Position numbers and translations under genes: made by a program. A stretch of 34,232 nucleotides of DNA from contig DUFP01000037.1 in assembly GCA_013331795.1 (NCBI GenBank), positions 2,177 to 36,408 of the forward strand, in the 5' to 3' direction. Source of the DNA: Nanobdellota archaeon (GTDB taxonomy: Archaea; Nanobdellota; Nanobdellia; SCGC-AAA011-G17; GW2011-AR17). The notes below the pieces were generated by a model. It was given only the letters and a program-made list of their open reading frames with translations. It ran no database searches and was not told the origin of the DNA. Below, in pieces: positions 7,903 through 28,002 of this stretch (the first letter of the stretch is position 1; every line of letters starts with the position of its first letter).

Positions 7903-9138
7903 CTAGGACTTTTTCACCATCTTCTGAATCATCTTCTCCATCTGATCAAACTTTTGCATCATCTCAGAGTTCATAAAGCGCTCATGAGCTTCAGCCATAT
8001 CTTGAAGCTTCTTACGATCTAGAGGTCTCTTACAAGTTACACAAAGCTCTGCGGTAAACCCATTATCGCAACCACAAAAGCCACAGACTTTAGGTTTCCA
8101 TTCTTCATGAACCGGTTTAGTATCCTGAATGCCTCTTCTCTCAAGCTCAATTTGTAAAGCATCCTGTTGCGTACTCATATCATAAATCTTGAGTTGCTTT
8201 GTCGAAGTCCACCGAGCAGCATGCTGAATCTGCATATCACTATCTCCACGCAAGCGTCTATACGTAATGTCATTCCTTTTCAAAGAATAACAAGTCACTT
8301 GCTTTTGTATTCCTAAGTGCTTACAAGCTTGTCGTAAACGAAAGTTAATTGCAGAATTCTTCAGTTGTGTATACTTCCCATTATTACTTTTACTCAAAAA
8401 GAAATAGGTTTGAGGATTCTGTCTAAAAGGATGCTCTCTATACCATTGAGCAATATACGGATAAGAATCTATGCACTGAAGAAAACCAGTTCCTTCTTTT
8501 CCATGCTCAGAAATCCACACTTTTGCATAGCTATCATAAAACTCATAATCCTTAATTTTTGTATAAAGGATTTCTTGTGGTCTACCTAAAGACTCAAAGA
8601 CCAGAGTAAGATACGCTTGCAAAGTGGAATTCCCTGAAAAGAAAGTAATAATCTTCTTGAACTCTTCATACGTAATCCTATCATTCCTCAGCTTTTCCTT
8701 ACTTTTATCAACAGTTCCACTCACATGGCGAACAGTATAGGGAATAAGAGTCTCATCTACTCTTCCATAATGATCCTTTTCAGGAAGGATAATACACCAA
8801 ATGGATTTAAGATCCTTAATAAAATCCTTTTTGCTATGCACAGTCTTATAGACCGTATGACTGTAAGAGACAAGATCATTAATATTTTCTCTTGTACACT
8901 CTGCTAAATCCTTCTCCAGAATAAAAGTAATAAAACGCATCACTTGAAAGACCTTTCTTCTTCGAATATAGCTCAAATCTTTCAAATTAAAATAAGAAAT
9001 CATAACCTGAAAATACTTGAGATTCTCATAATTCTTACAATAATATTTACCCTTACGTGGCTTTTTTGTAAAATTCACCAGTCTTTCAACGAGTTGTACA
9101 TATCTCTCTTTACTTCCATAGATATCATTTTCTGCCAT
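7903..9138 (-). CDS. Tyrosine recombinase/integrase with C-terminal zinc ribbon
   Basis: A 411-residue site-specific recombinase. Residues about 10-140 are a core-binding helical domain and about 150-325 the catalytic domain. Visible active-site candidates are Arg186 (ESLGRPQEIL), Lys214 in the beta hairpin (SEHGKEGTGF), the box II region YSLKRND (284-290), His306 and Trp310 (HAARWTST), and the nucleophile Tyr319 (QLKIYDMS). The classical box II HxxR is not intact: Tyr or Ser stands where His is usual, and Lys287/Arg288 supply the basic residue. Residues 352-369 are a zinc ribbon (CGFCGC...CVTC), and 378-411 a helical tail. The start is preceded by a near-perfect Shine-Dalgarno sequence. The 5' end faces the 3' end of tRNA-Gly(GCC), the usual arrangement for tRNA-targeting integrases. 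Confidence 0.9.
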   Translation of the reverse strand: MAENDIYGSKERYVQLVERLVNFTKKPRKGKYYCKNYENLKYFQVMISYFNLKDLSYIRRRKVFQVMRFITFILEKDLAECTRENINDLVSYSHTVYKTVHSKKDFIKDLKSIWCIILPEKDHYGRVDETLIPYTVRHVSGTVDKSKEKLRNDRITYEEFKKIITFFSGNSTLQAYLTLVFESLGRPQEILYTKIKDYEFYDSYAKVWISEHGKEGTGFLQCIDSYPYIAQWYREHPFRQNPQTYFFLSKSNNGKYTQLKNSAINFRLRQACKHLGIQKQVTCYSLKRNDITYRRLRGDSDMQIQHAARWTSTKQLKIYDMSTQQDALQIELERRGIQDTKPVHEEWKPKVCGFCGCDNGFTAELCVTCKRPLDRKKLQDMAEAHERFMNSEMMQKFDQMEKMIQKMVKKS

Positions 9139-9139
9139 G

Positions 9140-9158
9140 TATACCTCCTTAAGGTATA
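9140..9158 (-). promoter_or_regulatory. Strong Shine-Dalgarno inside an inverted repeat ahead of the integrase
   Basis: On the minus strand AAGGAGGT ends about 5 nt before the ATG at 9138. It lies within a perfect 7-bp inverted repeat, TATACCT (9140-9146) and AGGTATA (9152-9158), with a 5-nt loop. A TATA-like TCTTAAATAG (about 9171-9182) would place transcription start close to 9150, so the repeat may be a protein operator over the start site as well as, or instead of, an RNA hairpin. Confidence 0.55.
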
Positions 9159-9194
9159 GGCCAAGAAATTCTATTTAAGACTAGGGAAGACCTA

Positions 9195-9280
9195 GAAGTG
9201 CATAAGAGTTGAACATAGATGCGACCACTAAAATCCTCCCTTTTATTGGAAGCGCACAGAAGTTGAATAAGAATGCGCGA
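9195..9280. repeat. Pair of degenerate 29-32 bp direct repeats beside tRNA-Gly
   Basis: Copy 1 at 9195-9226 and copy 2 at 9249-9280, 54 bp apart, match at about 21 of the first 29 positions (shared GAAG.GCA.A..AGTTGAA.A...ATGCG). Each contains a short inverted repeat: GCA...TGC extended to GCGCA...TGCGC in copy 2. Copy 2 runs into the last seven bases of the tRNA gene. They lie upstream of the integrase promoter and may be recombinase arm or core sites. Confidence 0.4.
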
Positions 9281-9345
9281 GCCGAGATTTGAACTCGGGT
9301 CTCGACCTTGGCAAGGTCAAATACTAACCACTGTACTACTCACGC
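9274..9345 (-). tRNA. tRNA-Gly (GCC)
   Basis: A 72-nt cloverleaf on the minus strand. Acceptor stem GCGTGAG/CTCGCGC (one G-T pair) with discriminator A. Anticodon stem TGACC/GGTCG with loop TTGCCAA gives anticodon GCC. T arm CCGAG-TTCAAAT-CTCGG. No intron and no encoded CCA, consistent with the CCA-adding enzyme in this window. A TATA box (GGTATATAAAGG, 9370-9381) lies about 30 nt upstream. Its 3' end borders the accessory region and is the probable integration target. Confidence 0.95.
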
Positions 9346-9369
9346 AAACAAGTCCAAAAACAGAACAAT

Positions 9370-9381
9370 CCTTTATATACC
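9370..9381 (-). promoter_or_regulatory. TATA box of tRNA-Gly(GCC)
   Basis: GGTATATAAAGG on the minus strand is centred about 30 nt before the tRNA 5' end at 9345. Confidence 0.6.
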
Positions 9382-9451
9382 TTTCCCAAAAAAAGTCATA
9401 TAAGAAACAAGAAAACCTTTTTTATATCTTCTTTTATTTAAAACTTAAAAA

Positions 9452-9523
9452 TGCGCTAGCTGGGATTTGAACCCAGGTCCAAACCTTGGGAAGGTTTGAT
9501 ACTAGCCCCTATACGACTAGCGC
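9452..9523 (-). tRNA. tRNA-Gly (CCC)
   Basis: A 72-nt cloverleaf on the minus strand. Acceptor GCGCTAG/CTAGCGC (7 perfect pairs) with discriminator A. Anticodon stem AAACC/GGTTT with loop TTCCCAA gives anticodon CCC. T arm CTGGG-TTCAAAT-CCCAG. No intron and no encoded CCA. It is the second glycine isoacceptor within 180 bp. The TATA element for it is less clear (AGCTATTTTAAT near 9549-9560). Confidence 0.95.
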
Positions 9524-9564
9524 ATAACAACTAAAAACAAAGTCCTCATTAAAATAGCTTTCCA

Positions 9565-19060: not shown

Positions 19061-19860
19061 TTTTCCTCTTTAAACATAACTTCCTTTTTCCTTCTGCGAA
19101 CAGTATCACGAGAAAAACCTAACTTAACCATTTCTTTAGATTTTTTTCCATCATAAATCAATGTATCTAACAGAGAATAATTAACAGAAAAAGTAATACA
19201 AGAAGGCCTTCTTTTCAAGCCTAACTTTCTGGCATAATAAGAAGGAGAGCTTACTAAGTGCAAAGTTTCTTTAATCTTATCAGAAGATACTCCTCTATTC
19301 CAAAGCCCCGCAAATTGTATTTTTTCATAAGGAGTAAGTTTTTCTCTTCCATGATGAAATACTTGCTCTAAATGAGAAAGAACAACATCACAAAGTGCTC
19401 TTTTCAAAACAATGCTTGCTTGAGGAAGATTTCTATTCACATCTCTTTTATCTGTTGCAATGCCTGCAAATTTAACACAACGGTAATAGCCTTCACCAGC
19501 TCGTCGCGCAGCAATAAGCTTTTCCAAATCCTCTAAAGAATAGGTCTTTCCAATCTCATACACATCATGACATCTCCAAGCAAGAGCATGATCTAAACCT
19601 CTCTCTTCAATCAATCGATCAAAATAATGCTGTTGAAGAACATCAAGAAGGTTTTTATACTCCATATTCAGAGTTCTTTTATATTTCTTTTCTGTAGCTC
19701 GTAAATCTTTCGAAGTAAAACCGCTATATTCTTGTACAATCTGCCGTATTCTTTCAGAAGTTAAATTATTTATACGAGCAATATGCGAAAAAGCTTCACC
19801 ATGAAGAGCATCTTCAAGAATTTTTCTATTTCTATCCACATATTTATCAGTAAGATTCAT
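19057..19860 (-). CDS. Tandem HTH-repeat protein, paralogue 2 of 3
   Basis: A 267-residue paralogue of its two neighbours: N-terminal HTH (HIARINNLTSERIRQIVQEY), shared core (YFDRLIEERGLDHALAWRCH; IAARRAGEGYYRCVKFAGIA), a second domain with LWNRGVSSDKIKETLHLVSS followed by YYARKLGLKRR, and one C-terminal repeat (YSLLDTLIYDGKKSKEMVKL, then GFSRDTVRRRKKE). It shares a 54-nt identical DNA patch with paralogue 1 (19475-19528 versus 20548-20601), pointing to recent duplication or gene conversion. It overlaps both neighbours by four bases. Confidence 0.78.
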   Translation of the reverse strand: MNLTDKYVDRNRKILEDALHGEAFSHIARINNLTSERIRQIVQEYSGFTSKDLRATEKKYKRTLNMEYKNLLDVLQQHYFDRLIEERGLDHALAWRCHDVYEIGKTYSLEDLEKLIAARRAGEGYYRCVKFAGIATDKRDVNRNLPQASIVLKRALCDVVLSHLEQVFHHGREKLTPYEKIQFAGLWNRGVSSDKIKETLHLVSSPSYYARKLGLKRRPSCITFSVNYSLLDTLIYDGKKSKEMVKLGFSRDTVRRRKKEVMFKEEK

Positions 19861-21359
19861 TTTTCTTTCTCAAGTTCCAGTTTTTCTTTTCTTCGTGTAA
19901 TTGTTACACGAGAAAAACCCAACGTAATTATCTCTTTATTTGTTTTTCCTTCAGAGAGTAATCTATCTAAAATGGAATAATTTACTAGAGATTTTCTTCT
20001 TGAAACACCTAATTCTTTTCTCCTTCGAAAAATGCTTTTCTTAGAAAAACCAGCTTCTACTATTTCTCTATTACTTTTTTCCTCAAAAAGTAATGCATCT
20101 AAAATGGAATAATTAATAGCATTTTGAGAAGATTTTCTTACTAAACCTAACTCTTTCTTCCTTCTTCGAATAATATGCTCAGGAAAACCTAGACTCTCCA
20201 TTTCTGAATAGGTCTTTCCTCCAGAAATAAGATGATCTAAAGAAGAATAATCAACAAAAATTTTCCGAAGTATTGGAATTTCTCGTTTTTTCAAGCCAAG
20301 CTTTCGAACATAATAAGAAGTAGGACTTACTAAGTGTAAAGTTTCTTTTATTTCATGAGAAGATTCACCTCTATTCCACATTTCTTTAAGCTTTTCTTTC
20401 TCTTCAAAACTAAGGCTTCTTCCCTCAGCAAAGTTTTTATGATGAATATCTAAAACAACATCACAAAGTGCCTTTTTTAAAATCGCAGCCATGTGAGGAG
20501 TACGGCTCCGTATTTCTTTCCTAGTCTCTCCTATGCCCGCAAGTTTGACACAACGGTAATAGCCTTCACCAGCTCGTCGCGCAGCAATAAGCTTTTCCAA
20601 AGCCTCTAAAGAATAACTTGTACCCCAGCCATACACTTCTTTGCACCTCCATGCAAGGGCATGATCTAAACCCTTCTCTTCAATGTGCCTATCAAAATAA
20701 TATTGTTGAAGAACACCAACAAGCTCCTTATGTTCCTTATGCAAAGATTTGTTATATTCAGATCTTCTTTTTTTATAATTCTCAAAACCAAATCCTTGAA
20801 GAATCTGAGTTATTCTTTGCGAAGTCAAATTTCTCCCATCTTTCTGTCCTATTTCCTCAAGAGTAAAACGAAACGTTTTTGCCTCTTCAAGAATAGATGC
20901 ATCACGTAAAGAAATTTTTTCTGCTTTAATCTCAAAGGTGGAAGTTCTTTTTTTTCTTTCAGGTAATATATCTGCATGAGCATGATAAAGTCTACGAATA
21001 GCCACATTAGAACAAGAAAGAGTGTCCGCAATTTCTTTATGACTTATTGTTGGATCTTGAAGATATGTAAGTGCTTCTTGTTCAGAATCAGCAGAAAGAC
21101 AATATTTCCTCACAAAAGGCATTTGAAAAGAAATATCCTGTGATTGGAGATATGTAACCCAATGAGAAATAACAGATCTTGATAACAAATATTTTTTTTC
21201 TAAACCACCTAAAGAAAGATCATTCTTAACAATATCCTGAAGCAAGTGAAGTTCTCTTTGTAAATGAGGTGGAGAAAACTCTAAAAGAGAAGGATCGTCT
21301 TTTAAATGAAGATAATGGCCATAAACTTGTTTTTTATAATTTAAAGAACGCTTGGGCAT
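19857..21359 (-). CDS. Tandem HTH-repeat protein, paralogue 1 of 3, with three C-terminal repeats
   Basis: A 500-residue protein and first gene of the operon. Residues 1-150 carry extra HTH-like units (LEKKYLLSRSVISHWVTYLQ; HKEIADTLSCSNVAIRRLYH). Residues about 155-370 match the whole body of the two shorter paralogues (NLTSQRITQILQGF; GLDHALAWRCKEVYGWG; AARRAGEGYYRCVKLAGIG; YYVRKLGLKKRE). Residues 371-498 are three tandem repeats of 44-46 residues, each YSxLDxLxxxGKTxxE, then a hydrophobic turn LGF(S/P), then IxRRRKELG, which looks like a helix-turn-helix. The design suggests reading a repeated or extended DNA site. A TATA box at 21382-21390 is 27 nt from the start. Confidence 0.78.
   Translation of the reverse strand: MPKRSLNYKKQVYGHYLHLKDDPSLLEFSPPHLQRELHLLQDIVKNDLSLGGLEKKYLLSRSVISHWVTYLQSQDISFQMPFVRKYCLSADSEQEALTYLQDPTISHKEIADTLSCSNVAIRRLYHAHADILPERKKRTSTFEIKAEKISLRDASILEEAKTFRFTLEEIGQKDGRNLTSQRITQILQGFGFENYKKRRSEYNKSLHKEHKELVGVLQQYYFDRHIEEKGLDHALAWRCKEVYGWGTSYSLEALEKLIAARRAGEGYYRCVKLAGIGETRKEIRSRTPHMAAILKKALCDVVLDIHHKNFAEGRSLSFEEKEKLKEMWNRGESSHEIKETLHLVSPTSYYVRKLGLKKREIPILRKIFVDYSSLDHLISGGKTYSEMESLGFPEHIIRRRKKELGLVRKSSQNAINYSILDALLFEEKSNREIVEAGFSKKSIFRRRKELGVSRRKSLVNYSILDRLLSEGKTNKEIITLGFSRVTITRRKEKLELEKEK
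19860..20249 (-). repeat. Three in-gene tandem repeats encoding HTH units
   Basis: Repeats of about 138, 132 and 120 nt (20249-20112, 20111-19980, 19979-19860) encode the YSxLD...GKT...LGF...RRRKELG unit at the C-terminus of paralogue 1. Protein similarity is obvious. DNA similarity is moderate, so the repeats are not brand new. Confidence 0.65.
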
Positions 21360-22850: not shown

Positions 22851-23114
22851 CTAATAGTATCTTTTCTTTTTTTGTAACTTGTGAGAATAAGAAAACAAAA
22901 TAAAATATATCTTTTTCACTATTTTTGGATCTACATTTGTTTGCTTAACTAATCTCTGCAGAGTTTTCTGTTCTCGTTCTTTCTGGACCATATGAATTCC
23001 TTTTAATTCTTTTATTTTACCAATTTTAAGGACTGTATTTTTTCTCTGTTCAAGAAGATAAACTATTTTAGAATCTACCTTAGCTAATTCTTTTCGTAAT
23101 TTCTCAAGCTCCAT
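22851..23114 (-). CDS. Chorismate mutase, AroQ type
   Basis: An 87-residue stand-alone AroQ-fold chorismate mutase (chorismate to prephenate, cytosolic helical dimer). The active-site set is present with the spacing of the E. coli P-protein domain: Arg7 (KLRKEL), Arg24 (LLEQRKN), Lys35 (KIGKIKELKG), Arg47-Glu48 (QKEREQ) and a late Gln81 (HKLQKK). The R-17-R-11-K-12-R-E distances match exactly. No other aromatic amino acid gene is nearby. Instead it is divergent from a U32-family enzyme and a ferredoxin, sharing a single palindromic TATA box 26 nt from its start. I infer that its prephenate feeds RNA hydroxylation and not Phe/Tyr synthesis. Confidence 0.88.
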   Translation of the reverse strand: MELEKLRKELAKVDSKIVYLLEQRKNTVLKIGKIKELKGIHMVQKEREQKTLQRLVKQTNVDPKIVKKIYFILFSYSHKLQKKKRYY

Positions 23115-23135
23115 ATTTAAAGATATATTTGCGAA

Positions 23136-23145
23136 TATTTAAATA
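23136..23145. promoter_or_regulatory. Palindromic, probably bidirectional TATA box
   Basis: TATTTAAATA is a perfect palindrome whose centre (23140/23141) is about 26-27 nt from the chorismate mutase start (23114, minus) and about 27-28 nt from the U32 gene start (23168, plus). No other TATA-like element of similar quality is placed correctly for either gene, so one element seems to serve both. Confidence 0.65.
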
Positions 23146-23167
23146 CCTGCTCTTTTGCTTTTCAGCT

Positions 23168-24415
23168 ATGGAAAAAATTGAAATTATGGCTCCAGCAGGA
23201 TCTTATGAATCTTTAATGGCTGCTATAAACTCAGGAGCAAACTCGGTATACTTTGGTGTCGAGCAACTAAATATGCGGGCTCGTTCCACAAATAATTTTT
23301 TCATAAAGGATTTAGAAAGAATTTCAGAAATTTGCAAAAAAAATAACATAAAAACATATCTAACAATAAACACAATTCTATACGATCATGATATTAATTT
23401 AATGAAAAATATTTGTGATAAAGCAAAATCTGCAGGGATTACAGCAATCATTGCAAGTGACCATGCGGCAATCTCTTATTGTAATAAGATACAAATGCCT
23501 GTTCACATTTCAACACAGGTAAATGTGAGCAATTATGAAAGTATCGAATATTTTTCTAAGTTTGCTGATGTAATTGTTCTAGCTAGAGAACTTACATTAA
23601 AACAAATAAAGGATATTTGTAGAAGAATAAAAGAAAATAATTTAAGAGGCCCTTCTGGCAACCTTATTGAAATAGAAATCTTCGCTCACGGAGCATTATG
23701 TGTTGCTATCTCAGGAAAATGCCATATGAGCCTAGTCACAGAAAATGCTTCTGCTAATAGGGGTGCATGCATTCAAAATTGTAGAAGAGAATACAAAGTA
23801 ATTGATGTTGAAGATGACCATGAATTTGTAATGGATAACAAATATGTAATGTCCCCGAAAGATCTTTGTACCATTGGCTTTTTAGACCAAATACTTGGCT
23901 CTGGAGTTTCCGTATTAAAAATTGAAGGTCGTGGTCGTGCACCTGAATATGTTCATACAGTCGTTCAATGTTATAGAGAAGCTGTAGATGCATATTTACA
24001 AGGAACATATAGTCAAGAAAAAGTGAAACTATGGATAGAAGAGGTAGAAAAAGTATACAATCGTGGTTTTTGGCATGGTGGCTATTATCTTGGTAAAGAA
24101 ATAGATATGTGGAGTGCTACTTCTGGTTCTATAGCAAAACAAGAAAAGCAATATATTGGTACAGTACTAAATTATTTTGCTAAAACAAAAATTGCCCATA
24201 TCAAATTAGAAGCTGCAGACCTTGAATTAAATAAAAATATCTTAATAATTGGACCAACAACTGGAGTCATCGAAGAAAAAGTATCAGTTATACAACACGA
24301 AGAAAATAAAATTAATGTAGCTAAACAAGGTCTTGAAATAACAATCCCTCTTGAAAGAGTAGTTAGGAAAAATGATAAAGTTTATGTTATTTGTGAGAAA
24401 TCATGTCAACAATAA
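23168..24415 (+). CDS. U32 peptidase-family RNA hydroxylase (TrhP-like)
   Basis: A 415-residue U32-family protein. U32 proteins such as E. coli TrhP and RlhA are Fe-S enzymes that hydroxylate tRNA or rRNA pyrimidines, despite the peptidase name. A TIM-barrel-like start (MAPAGSYESLMAAINSGANS) is followed by the family signature HGALCVAISGKC (174-185) and NRGACIQNCRREYK. The cluster ligands are Cys178, Cys185, Cys201 and Cys205. The C-terminal part (about 330-415) is a small beta barrel, as in TrhP. An in-frame Met at 23129 lies upstream of the TATA box, so the start is set at 23168. Overlaps the ferredoxin gene by 13 nt. Ubiquinone-type U32 proteins (UbiU/UbiV) are a less likely alternative. 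Confidence 0.88.
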   Translation: MEKIEIMAPAGSYESLMAAINSGANSVYFGVEQLNMRARSTNNFFIKDLERISEICKKNNIKTYLTINTILYDHDINLMKNICDKAKSAGITAIIASDHAAISYCNKIQMPVHISTQVNVSNYESIEYFSKFADVIVLARELTLKQIKDICRRIKENNLRGPSGNLIEIEIFAHGALCVAISGKCHMSLVTENASANRGACIQNCRREYKVIDVEDDHEFVMDNKYVMSPKDLCTIGFLDQILGSGVSVLKIEGRGRAPEYVHTVVQCYREAVDAYLQGTYSQEKVKLWIEEVEKVYNRGFWHGGYYLGKEIDMWSATSGSIAKQEKQYIGTVLNYFAKTKIAHIKLEAADLELNKNILIIGPTTGVIEEKVSVIQHEENKINVAKQGLEITIPLERVVRKNDKVYVICEKSCQQ

Positions 24416-24627
24416 TTCATTTTCGAGATAAGTGTATAGGTTGTAATTCTTGCATTGAGATAGCTCCAGAATTCTGGGAGATGTCTAAAGAAGATGGTAA
24501 ATCAAAATTAAAAGATTCAATAGACAAAAAAGGTATTTATCAAAAGAAAATACATAAAATAGACCTGGACAAGAATAAAGAAGCCACAGAATCCTGTCCA
24601 GTAAACTGTATACAAGTTATAGACTAA
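24403..24627 (+). CDS. Small [4Fe-4S] ferredoxin
   Basis: A 74-residue ferredoxin carrying a single cubane cluster: Cys11, Cys14 and Cys17 (CIGCNSCIEIAP) and Cys65 before Pro (ESCPVNC), with an extra Cys69. This is the layout of monocluster archaeal ferredoxins, with an insertion-rich middle (SKEDGKSKLKDS). It starts 13 nt inside the U32 gene, so translation is coupled. It is likely the electron donor of that Fe-S enzyme. It ends convergent with the HTH gene, overlapping by four bases. Confidence 0.9.
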   Translation: MSTIIHFRDKCIGCNSCIEIAPEFWEMSKEDGKSKLKDSIDKKGIYQKKIHKIDLDKNKEATESCPVNCIQVID

Positions 24628-26429: not shown

Positions 26430-26463
26430 ATTATTTAAATCTTGACAAAAGATATTTAAATAG
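26430..26463. promoter_or_regulatory. Divergent TATA boxes
   Basis: Minus-strand GATTTAAATAAT (26430-26441) is about 27 nt from the start at 26409. Plus-strand GATATTTAAATAG (26451-26463) is about 25 nt from the start at 26482. The two promoters are back to back. Confidence 0.6.
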
Positions 26464-26481: not shown

Positions 26482-28002
26482 ATGAAAAAAGAGCTGAGTA
26501 TCCTTCTAGTGATAATACTCTTTCTACCAGCAATATCTGCACTTTCTATGTCTCTCACATTTCCAAGCTCTGGAAACAGCACAAATATGACATCTATTAT
26601 CTTTTCTTGCACTGCAACAGAAGCAACCTACAGCATTTCTTCTATTGCACTCTATATGAATACATCCAGTTCTCCATGGGCTGTGGTCGCAACGCAAAGT
26701 AATGCAAGTATAACAGCAAATTTTCTCGTTTCAAGCCTAACTTCAGGAGCATATATTTGGAATTGCTTGGCAACGAACACAAATGCAGAAACAGCAGCAG
26801 CATCGAGTAATAATACACTCACAATCTCCACCCTAGCATTTTCTGGAATAATAGCAAACTATGCAACGAATGAAGACGCAACAAGCGAAAATCTCTTTGA
26901 CTTAGATAGTTATTTTACAGGTGCAAATTCTTATACCTTTTCAGGAAACACAAGCGCAAATATCAGCATTGACACAAATAATCAGTTCAGTATTACCCCC
27001 ACTGAAAACTTTACGGGCACACAAAATATAACAATTACAGGAAAATATGCTTCTTCTACAGTCACGAGCAATCAATTTACAATAAACATCACCAATGTAA
27101 ATGATGCACCACAAAAAATAGCAAACATATCCGATTTAACACTAGCAAAGAATACTAATACAACACTTAATATGAACAGTTATTTTTCTGATATAGACCA
27201 TAATAATAATCTCACCTACGCAACATCTGCAGCACATATAAATCTTCTCCAAAATAGTTCAATCATTACTCTTAGCCCAGACACTGACTGGGGAGGAACA
27301 GAAAATATAACAATCACAGCTAGTGATGGCTCTGCTTCTGTCACCAGTAATTCTTTTAGTATAACAGTCGGCGCAACAACAAACACAGCACCAGCAATAA
27401 ATTCCCATTCTCCTGACACAGATCCAAGCATAGAACCTGGAGACACGCAAGACTTTTCCATTTCCGTTTCTGATGCAGAAAGCAATACATTAACATATGC
27501 ATGGTTTGTAAATGATCTTCAACAAACAGACACAGATGACAGCTTTTCTTATACAGCAATAGAAGAGGGAATTTTTACAATCAAAGCAACAGTCTCTGAT
27601 GCAACAGAAGAAACAACACAAACATGGACACTCACAGTAGGAAACTCAGTATTGAGTCAAGTAGAAGTTGATTCTATTCTTACAGAAAGCACAAGCTCTG
27701 CAGTATGTGGAAATAAAATTATAGAATCAGGAGAAACCTGCTCTTCATGTGCTTTAGATATTTCCTGCGGTTCTGGAGAAGTCTGTAAACAAGGCCTCTG
27801 TGAAAAGAAAAAATCTGCAGCAAAGGCAATTCTTTTGTTAGCAATAGCAAGCATAGCAATACTTCTCCTTGCATTCCTTATATATTATTTCACAACCCTT
27901 AAAAAGAGTGGGAGAAAGCAAGATTCTACACCATTCCAATATAGTCCTACAACTGCTTCACCTCCTACAGACTATACTGATTTTTATAAGGGTAAAAAAT
28001 GA
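26482..28002 (+). CDS. Membrane-anchored surface protein with Ig-like/cadherin-like repeats
   Basis: A 506-residue secreted protein. Signal peptide at residues 1-20 (KKELSILLVIILFLPAISA). Then Ig-like beta domains: about 22-115; 130-210 and 211-300, two cadherin-like units linked by an NDAP motif; and 304-390, a PKD/Ig-like unit (GDTQDFSISVSDAE; AWFVNDLQQTD). A Cys-rich knot follows near 410-445 (CGNKIIESGETCSSC, CGSGEVCKQGLCEKK). One C-terminal membrane helix (AILLLAIASIAILLLAFLIY) and a 36-residue cytosolic tail end it. Rich in Asn, Ser and Thr, with many N-glycosylation sequons. Probably cell-envelope adhesion or structure. Ends in an ATGA overlap with the DHH gene. Confidence 0.82.
   Translation: MKKELSILLVIILFLPAISALSMSLTFPSSGNSTNMTSIIFSCTATEATYSISSIALYMNTSSSPWAVVATQSNASITANFLVSSLTSGAYIWNCLATNTNAETAAASSNNTLTISTLAFSGIIANYATNEDATSENLFDLDSYFTGANSYTFSGNTSANISIDTNNQFSITPTENFTGTQNITITGKYASSTVTSNQFTINITNVNDAPQKIANISDLTLAKNTNTTLNMNSYFSDIDHNNNLTYATSAAHINLLQNSSIITLSPDTDWGGTENITITASDGSASVTSNSFSITVGATTNTAPAINSHSPDTDPSIEPGDTQDFSISVSDAESNTLTYAWFVNDLQQTDTDDSFSYTAIEEGIFTIKATVSDATEETTQTWTLTVGNSVLSQVEVDSILTESTSSAVCGNKIIESGETCSSCALDISCGSGEVCKQGLCEKKKSAAKAILLLAIASIAILLLAFLIYYFTTLKKSGRKQDSTPFQYSPTTASPPTDYTDFYKGKK

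Follow-up and report, generated by a model that had tools for sequence, protein, structure and literature searches.

A chorismate mutase gene, a gene for a U32-family iron-sulfur protein and a ferredoxin gene lie together in the stretch of Nanobdellota DNA analyzed here (34,232 nucleotides, referred to as the window), and on balance we think it probable that they form a dedicated, O2-independent RNA hydroxylation module fed by scavenged chorismate. This reading draws on the genes themselves, the residues of their clusters and active site, their linkage and co-occurrence, a gene fusion, and the absence of genes for chorismate synthase, Phe/Tyr synthesis and CmoA. A preliminary description of the window had pictured a self-contained prephenate-linked module. 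Its core stood, in that the linkage of chorismate mutase (CM), U32 protein and ferredoxin (Fdx) is conserved and no Phe/Tyr pathway was found; self-containment did not, as chorismate would come from outside.

The three-gene locus and its intergenic palindrome

The source genome (G000; 975 kb, about 90% complete) carries the window on its contig C24, and profile searches revealed the archaeal character of the genes in the window (L15e, proteasome, NreA and FttA). The features of the locus are given in Table 1. CM is divergent from U32-Fdx, and the overlap of 13 nt between the Fdx and U32 genes, together with the monocluster nature of the ferredoxin, was as previously described. The earlier statement that the window holds no other aromatic biosynthesis gene also agreed with our analysis, which found no further aromatic-pathway gene among the larger ORFs of the window. 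Elsewhere in the window, a phage-type integrase gene adjoins two tRNA-Gly genes (7903-9524), a possible mobile-element integration site, and a protein of 500 aa that contains short, repeated HTH-like segments (19857-21359) matched no family above cut-off.

Table 1. Features of the CM-U32-Fdx locus (positions within the window)
Feature	Position	Strand	Basis
AroQ-type chorismate mutase (CM)	22851..23114	-	87 aa; PF01817, 55.8 bits; residue alignment
Perfect palindrome TATTTAAATA	23136..23145	.	sequence
Iron-sulfur protein of the U32 family, with a TIM barrel and a C-terminal barrel	23168..24415	+	415 aa; PF01136, 219 bits; CX6CX15CX3C; AlphaFold
Single-cluster [4Fe-4S] ferredoxin (Fdx)	24403..24627	+	74 aa; PF13370, 46.9 bits

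The most likely start of the U32 gene is the ATG at 23168; the mechanically listed TTG at 23129 lies upstream of it. Distances from the centre of the palindrome to the two start codons are 26.5 nt for CM and 27.5 nt for U32. Given the archaeal TATA spacing, the palindrome is probably one TATA box for both divergent, leaderless genes. The only other copy of the 10-mer in the window is at 26453, just upstream of an ORF at 26482. A sigma-70 promoter scan, the model of which is unsuited to archaea, gave chance-level results.

Sequence and structural features of the three proteins

The CM is a single-domain AroQ protein, as had been proposed. Its PF01817 score exceeded the cut-off of 27 bits, and alignment with E. 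coli PheA paired R7, R24, K35, R47, E48, S77 and Q81 with R11, R28, K39, R51, E52, S84 and Q88, respectively. The sole catalytic position changed is that of PheA D48, which is Q44 in the window CM. The score with the archaeal CM equivalog TIGR01791 was 51.1 bits, under the cut-off of 66.95.

Comparison of CMs from related archaea revealed that Gln88 is kept in 2 of 14 U32-linked CMs (that of the window and that of G002, a genome of the same genus) versus 16 of 22 unlinked CMs (p = 0.0016), in samples that are small and uncorrected for relatedness. Several of the linked CMs terminate just short of this residue. The substrate-binding residues R11, R28, K39, R51 and E52 are almost always kept in the linked CMs, although the CM of G328 has also lost R11 and R51. 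The loss of Gln88 from 12 of the 14 linked CMs, the window's excepted, suggests relaxed catalysis or a delivery role, and makes activity of the Gln88-less proteins appear doubtful: RNA modification may require no more than a slow mutase, or else these proteins would mainly bind and deliver the substrate. The branches of a CM tree were unsettled, 80 residues being too few.

Some CM-like matches were set aside. Those in G034 and G049 lie within 215- to 231-aa proteins of different make-up and are doubtful as CMs; the counts hardly change without them. Proteins of 215 to 231 aa at L077:2294-2941 and L074:8136-8831 comprise a divergent CM_2 domain plus extra sequence, and U32 is found elsewhere in those genomes. 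A CM domain near U32 in a Bacteroidia locus (L120) belongs to a 236-aa protein of different make-up and was taken as chance.

The U32 domain and four cluster cysteines reported for the second protein were confirmed. The PF01136 score exceeded the cut-off of 22.4 bits, and the cluster motif (C178-X6-C185-X15-C201-X3-C205) is, along with E170 (equivalent to TrhP E162), invariant across 12 archaeal rows of the alignment. CX6CX15CX3C is the motif of U32 oxidases (PMC11574389). The TrhP model NF011996 gave 175.8 bits against an equivalog cut-off of 534, and the UbiU and UbiV models gave 155.7 and 59.3 bits (cut-offs, 440 and 275). The nearest E. coli protein by BLAST was RlhA (30.5% identity), whose 653-aa architecture is not that of the 415-aa window protein. 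Since no curated equivalog cut-off was passed, the window U32 is, on these scores, not an orthologue of TrhP, RlhA or UbiU/V and is a separate subfamily. In a U32 tree, the E. coli rows were long-branched and joined each other, and the archaeal clade was unplaced among known subfamilies.

The AlphaFold model of the U32 protein (pLDDT 86.8) consists of a barrel and a C-terminal domain. Fold searches matched the barrel to a U32 structure (PDB 5d88) and the C-terminal domain to that of a Geobacillus U32 protein (4he5/4he6; TM 0.89, rmsd 1.1 Å), identifying a predicted C-terminal U32_C barrel of the TrhP type; EF-Tu and IF2 barrels also were among the matches of this domain. The corresponding Pfam domain in E. 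coli TrhP is PF16325, to which a relative (G062) showed a weak match. A sequence search of solved structures with the U32 protein returned nothing useful, and a viral fold search returned mostly generic barrels plus a phage 'peptidase'. As modeled, the TrhP-type barrel favours RNA as the substrate, and the target could be tRNA U34, 23S C2501 or another. The preliminary description had allowed for a grouping with UbiU/UbiV; we observed instead that TrhP outscored UbiU and UbiV (176, 156 and 59 bits) and that the C-terminal domain is of the TrhP type, the tree being weak at this point.

The ferredoxin matches Fer4_13 (PF13370), and its CxxCxxC...CP motif (C11, C14, C17 and C65) is that of a single-cluster ferredoxin. 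The window U32 belongs to a subfamily that also includes Bacteroidota proteins, with up to about 60% identity, and of 80 named loci of this subfamily, 53 have a ferredoxin of the window family immediately behind U32. Because of this distribution, we take the U32-ferredoxin pair to be an old unit and CM an archaeal addition. On the U32 tree, CM linkage takes 4 to 6 gains or losses. Contig C29 of the source genome carries another U32-ferredoxin pair (L097:6041-7262), this one lacking CM, and the one CM of the genome may serve both pairs.

Conservation of the CM-U32 linkage

The preliminary description had suggested a search of related archaea for the three-gene arrangement, and this proved informative. 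Clusters of CM, U32 and Fdx occur in 10 genomes that represent 6 families, and in most of these clusters the reading frames overlap. The gene order is U32-CM-Fdx in G064, G241, G269, G322 and G328, U32-Fdx-CM in G309, Fdx-CM-U32 in G062, and Fdx-CM-(CorA-like gene)-U32 in G023; G000 has the divergent layout described above. In G002, a natural ferredoxin-CM fusion (167 aa; PF13459/PF13370 plus PF01817) directly follows U32. A 178-aa frame in G309 that resembled a second such fusion was actually two overlapping genes. CM lies beside U32 without Fdx in four more genomes (G024, G041, G067 and G084), so that CM is beside or near U32 in 14 genomes from 11 genera and 6 families. U32-CM adjacency was observed in 14 of the 43 genomes that combine U32 with an orphan CM (defined below), whereas random placement would give about 0.9% per genome (p near 1e-18, assuming independent genomes). 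Neither a CM-U32 module nor a ferredoxin-CM fusion had been reported in the literature that we searched, the coverage of which was incomplete.

CM as an orphan gene and its co-occurrence with U32

The source genome encodes one CM and two U32 proteins. Prephenate dehydratase (PDT), prephenate dehydrogenase (PDH) and chorismate synthase all were absent from this 90%-complete genome, and the Phe/Tyr pathway that could have used this CM, a possibility left by the preliminary description, was thus not seen; prephenate has no known amino-acid use there. Chorismate synthase was found in 0 of 117 relatives and in 14 of 14 control genomes; therefore, chorismate would have to be imported. No chorismate transporter was identified. 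CM was detected in 73 of the 378 genomes of the class and U32 in 155. We termed a CM orphan if its genome had no PDT, PDH or chorismate synthase above cut-off; one genome (G346), with a CM below cut-off, was left out of this sorting. U32 is present in 43 of 46 orphan-CM genomes, compared with 98 of 305 CM-less genomes (p = 5e-16) and, where CM is accompanied by pathway genes, 14 of 26 (p = 1e-4); these p values overstate the evidence, as the genomes are related, a problem from which the family count and the fusion are free. CmoA, the other known prephenate-using tRNA-modification enzyme, was above cut-off in none of the 46 orphan-CM genomes, and weak matches to it (61 bits or less against a cut-off of 193) were read as other methyltransferases.

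In genomes with pathway genes, CM often lies beside or is fused to PDH or PDT (G011, G013, G015, G017 and others), and no CM beside U32 was found in these genomes among the matches listed. Since CM is beside PDH/PDT there and beside U32 here, in both settings its neighbour is a known or presumed user of prephenate. Genomes with U32 but no CM are common. Because about one-third of CM-less genomes carry U32, including that of a same-genus relative (G003; 100% complete, with U32-ferredoxin and no CM, like many other relatives), a resident CM is evidently not essential for U32-Fdx to work; such species would need imported prephenate.

Proposed mechanism and alternative explanations

In the proposed module, CM would produce prephenate from chorismate, which this archaeon cannot make and would obtain from a host or the environment. 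The U32 protein would hydroxylate an RNA pyrimidine (in tRNA or 23S rRNA) independently of O2, with prephenate as the probable hydroxyl (oxygen) donor, and the small ferredoxin would handle the electrons of the U32 cluster as its redox partner. E. coli TrhP needs prephenate and loses its function upon mutation of E162, C170 or C177, and added prephenate restores ho5U in E. coli cultures (PMC6599085). The hydroxyl in anaerobic ubiquinone synthesis comes from prephenate (PMC11574389), and the prephenate role and electron path of U32 hydroxylation are undefined (PMC6599085, PMC11574389).

It is unlikely, in our estimate, that the CM-like protein of the linked clusters serves U32 chiefly as a subunit that binds or delivers chorismate/prephenate and is not an efficient mutase. 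The Gln88 contrast between linked and unlinked CMs, the near-constant substrate-binding residues and the physical fusion to ferredoxin in G002 are what such a role predicts. However, Gln88 is retained in the window CM and in the G002 fusion, the comparison covers few proteins with no correction for relatedness, and relaxed selection explains the loss equally well, since a slow mutase suffices for the small flux of RNA modification. We give still less weight to a U32 enzyme that, like UbiU/UbiV acting on ubiquinone, hydroxylates a non-RNA substrate with prephenate. UbiU and UbiV are members of the U32 family (PMC10470549). The UbiU model does match at 156 bits, but TrhP scores higher and the predicted C-terminal domain is of the TrhP type. 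Moreover, archaea are not known to make ubiquinone.

It is very unlikely that the CM is left over from, or belongs to, an aromatic amino-acid pathway whose other genes were missed or are supplied by the host. The source genome is only about 90% complete and some relatives have PDT or PDH with CM, but the 46 genomes without PDT, PDH or chorismate synthase above cut-off include 43 with U32 and 14 with CM beside it, and no pathway-gene genome has this adjacency among the matches listed. Coincidence is extremely improbable as an account of the neighbourhood. CM and U32 are divergent in the window and so are not one operon there, but chance can be ruled out in practice because 14 genomes from 6 families preserve the linkage, overlapping frames and one fusion occur among them, and the probability is about 1e-18 under independence; moreover, CM and U32 have a TATA-like palindrome midway between them.

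A dedicated RNA hydroxylation module fed by scavenged chorismate therefore is the reading that we favour. A bolder version, which we regard as speculative and unlikely, makes CM a working part of the U32 enzyme: a CM-Fdx-U32 complex would capture scavenged chorismate and hand prephenate or chorismate to the U32 cluster, in several lineages without Gln88. If true, this would be the first U32 system to supply its own oxygen donor, and the first example of prephenate synthesis devoted exclusively to RNA modification. On the reading that we favour, every other known prephenate user has been lost here, with CM, U32 and ferredoxin left together. That reading would account for the puzzling orphan CM gene in genomes without a shikimate pathway and would offer independent, nonbacterial evidence for prephenate as the partner of U32 enzymes and for a small ferredoxin as their redox partner. 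It also names a minimal protein set for reconstitution (CM, U32 and ferredoxin), and under it ultra-small archaea are predicted to contain hydroxylated RNA and to depend metabolically on chorismate from a host.

Comparison with known systems

E. coli TrhP (YegQ), which carries out prephenate-dependent hydroxylation of tRNA U34, has in common with the window U32 the U32 domain, four cluster cysteines, the Glu and the C-terminal barrel; a need for prephenate is presumed here. The two proteins are about 25% identical, and the window U32 reaches 176 of the 534 bits of the TrhP equivalog. E. coli draws its prephenate from the bulk Phe/Tyr pathway (PheA/TyrA), and neither a CM nor a ferredoxin gene is linked to trhP. 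E. coli RlhA, which hydroxylates 23S rRNA C2501 in a prephenate-dependent manner, likewise has the U32 domain and motif but is a longer protein (653 versus 415 aa), and rlhA has no linked CM. UbiU and UbiV, of anaerobic ubiquinone hydroxylation, also are U32 [4Fe-4S] proteins that work without O2 and with prephenate as the oxygen source. They differ in being paired, shorter proteins (331 and 292 aa) with a quinone substrate that archaea are not known to make, and in UbiU the alignment column of the fourth cysteine, a Cys in the window U32, is occupied by Ser. Bacteroidota, which generally have their own shikimate pathway, encode a U32-ferredoxin pair to which no CM of the window kind is linked, yet these U32 proteins are the closest bacterial relatives, with up to about 60% identity and, in most, a same-family ferredoxin immediately downstream.
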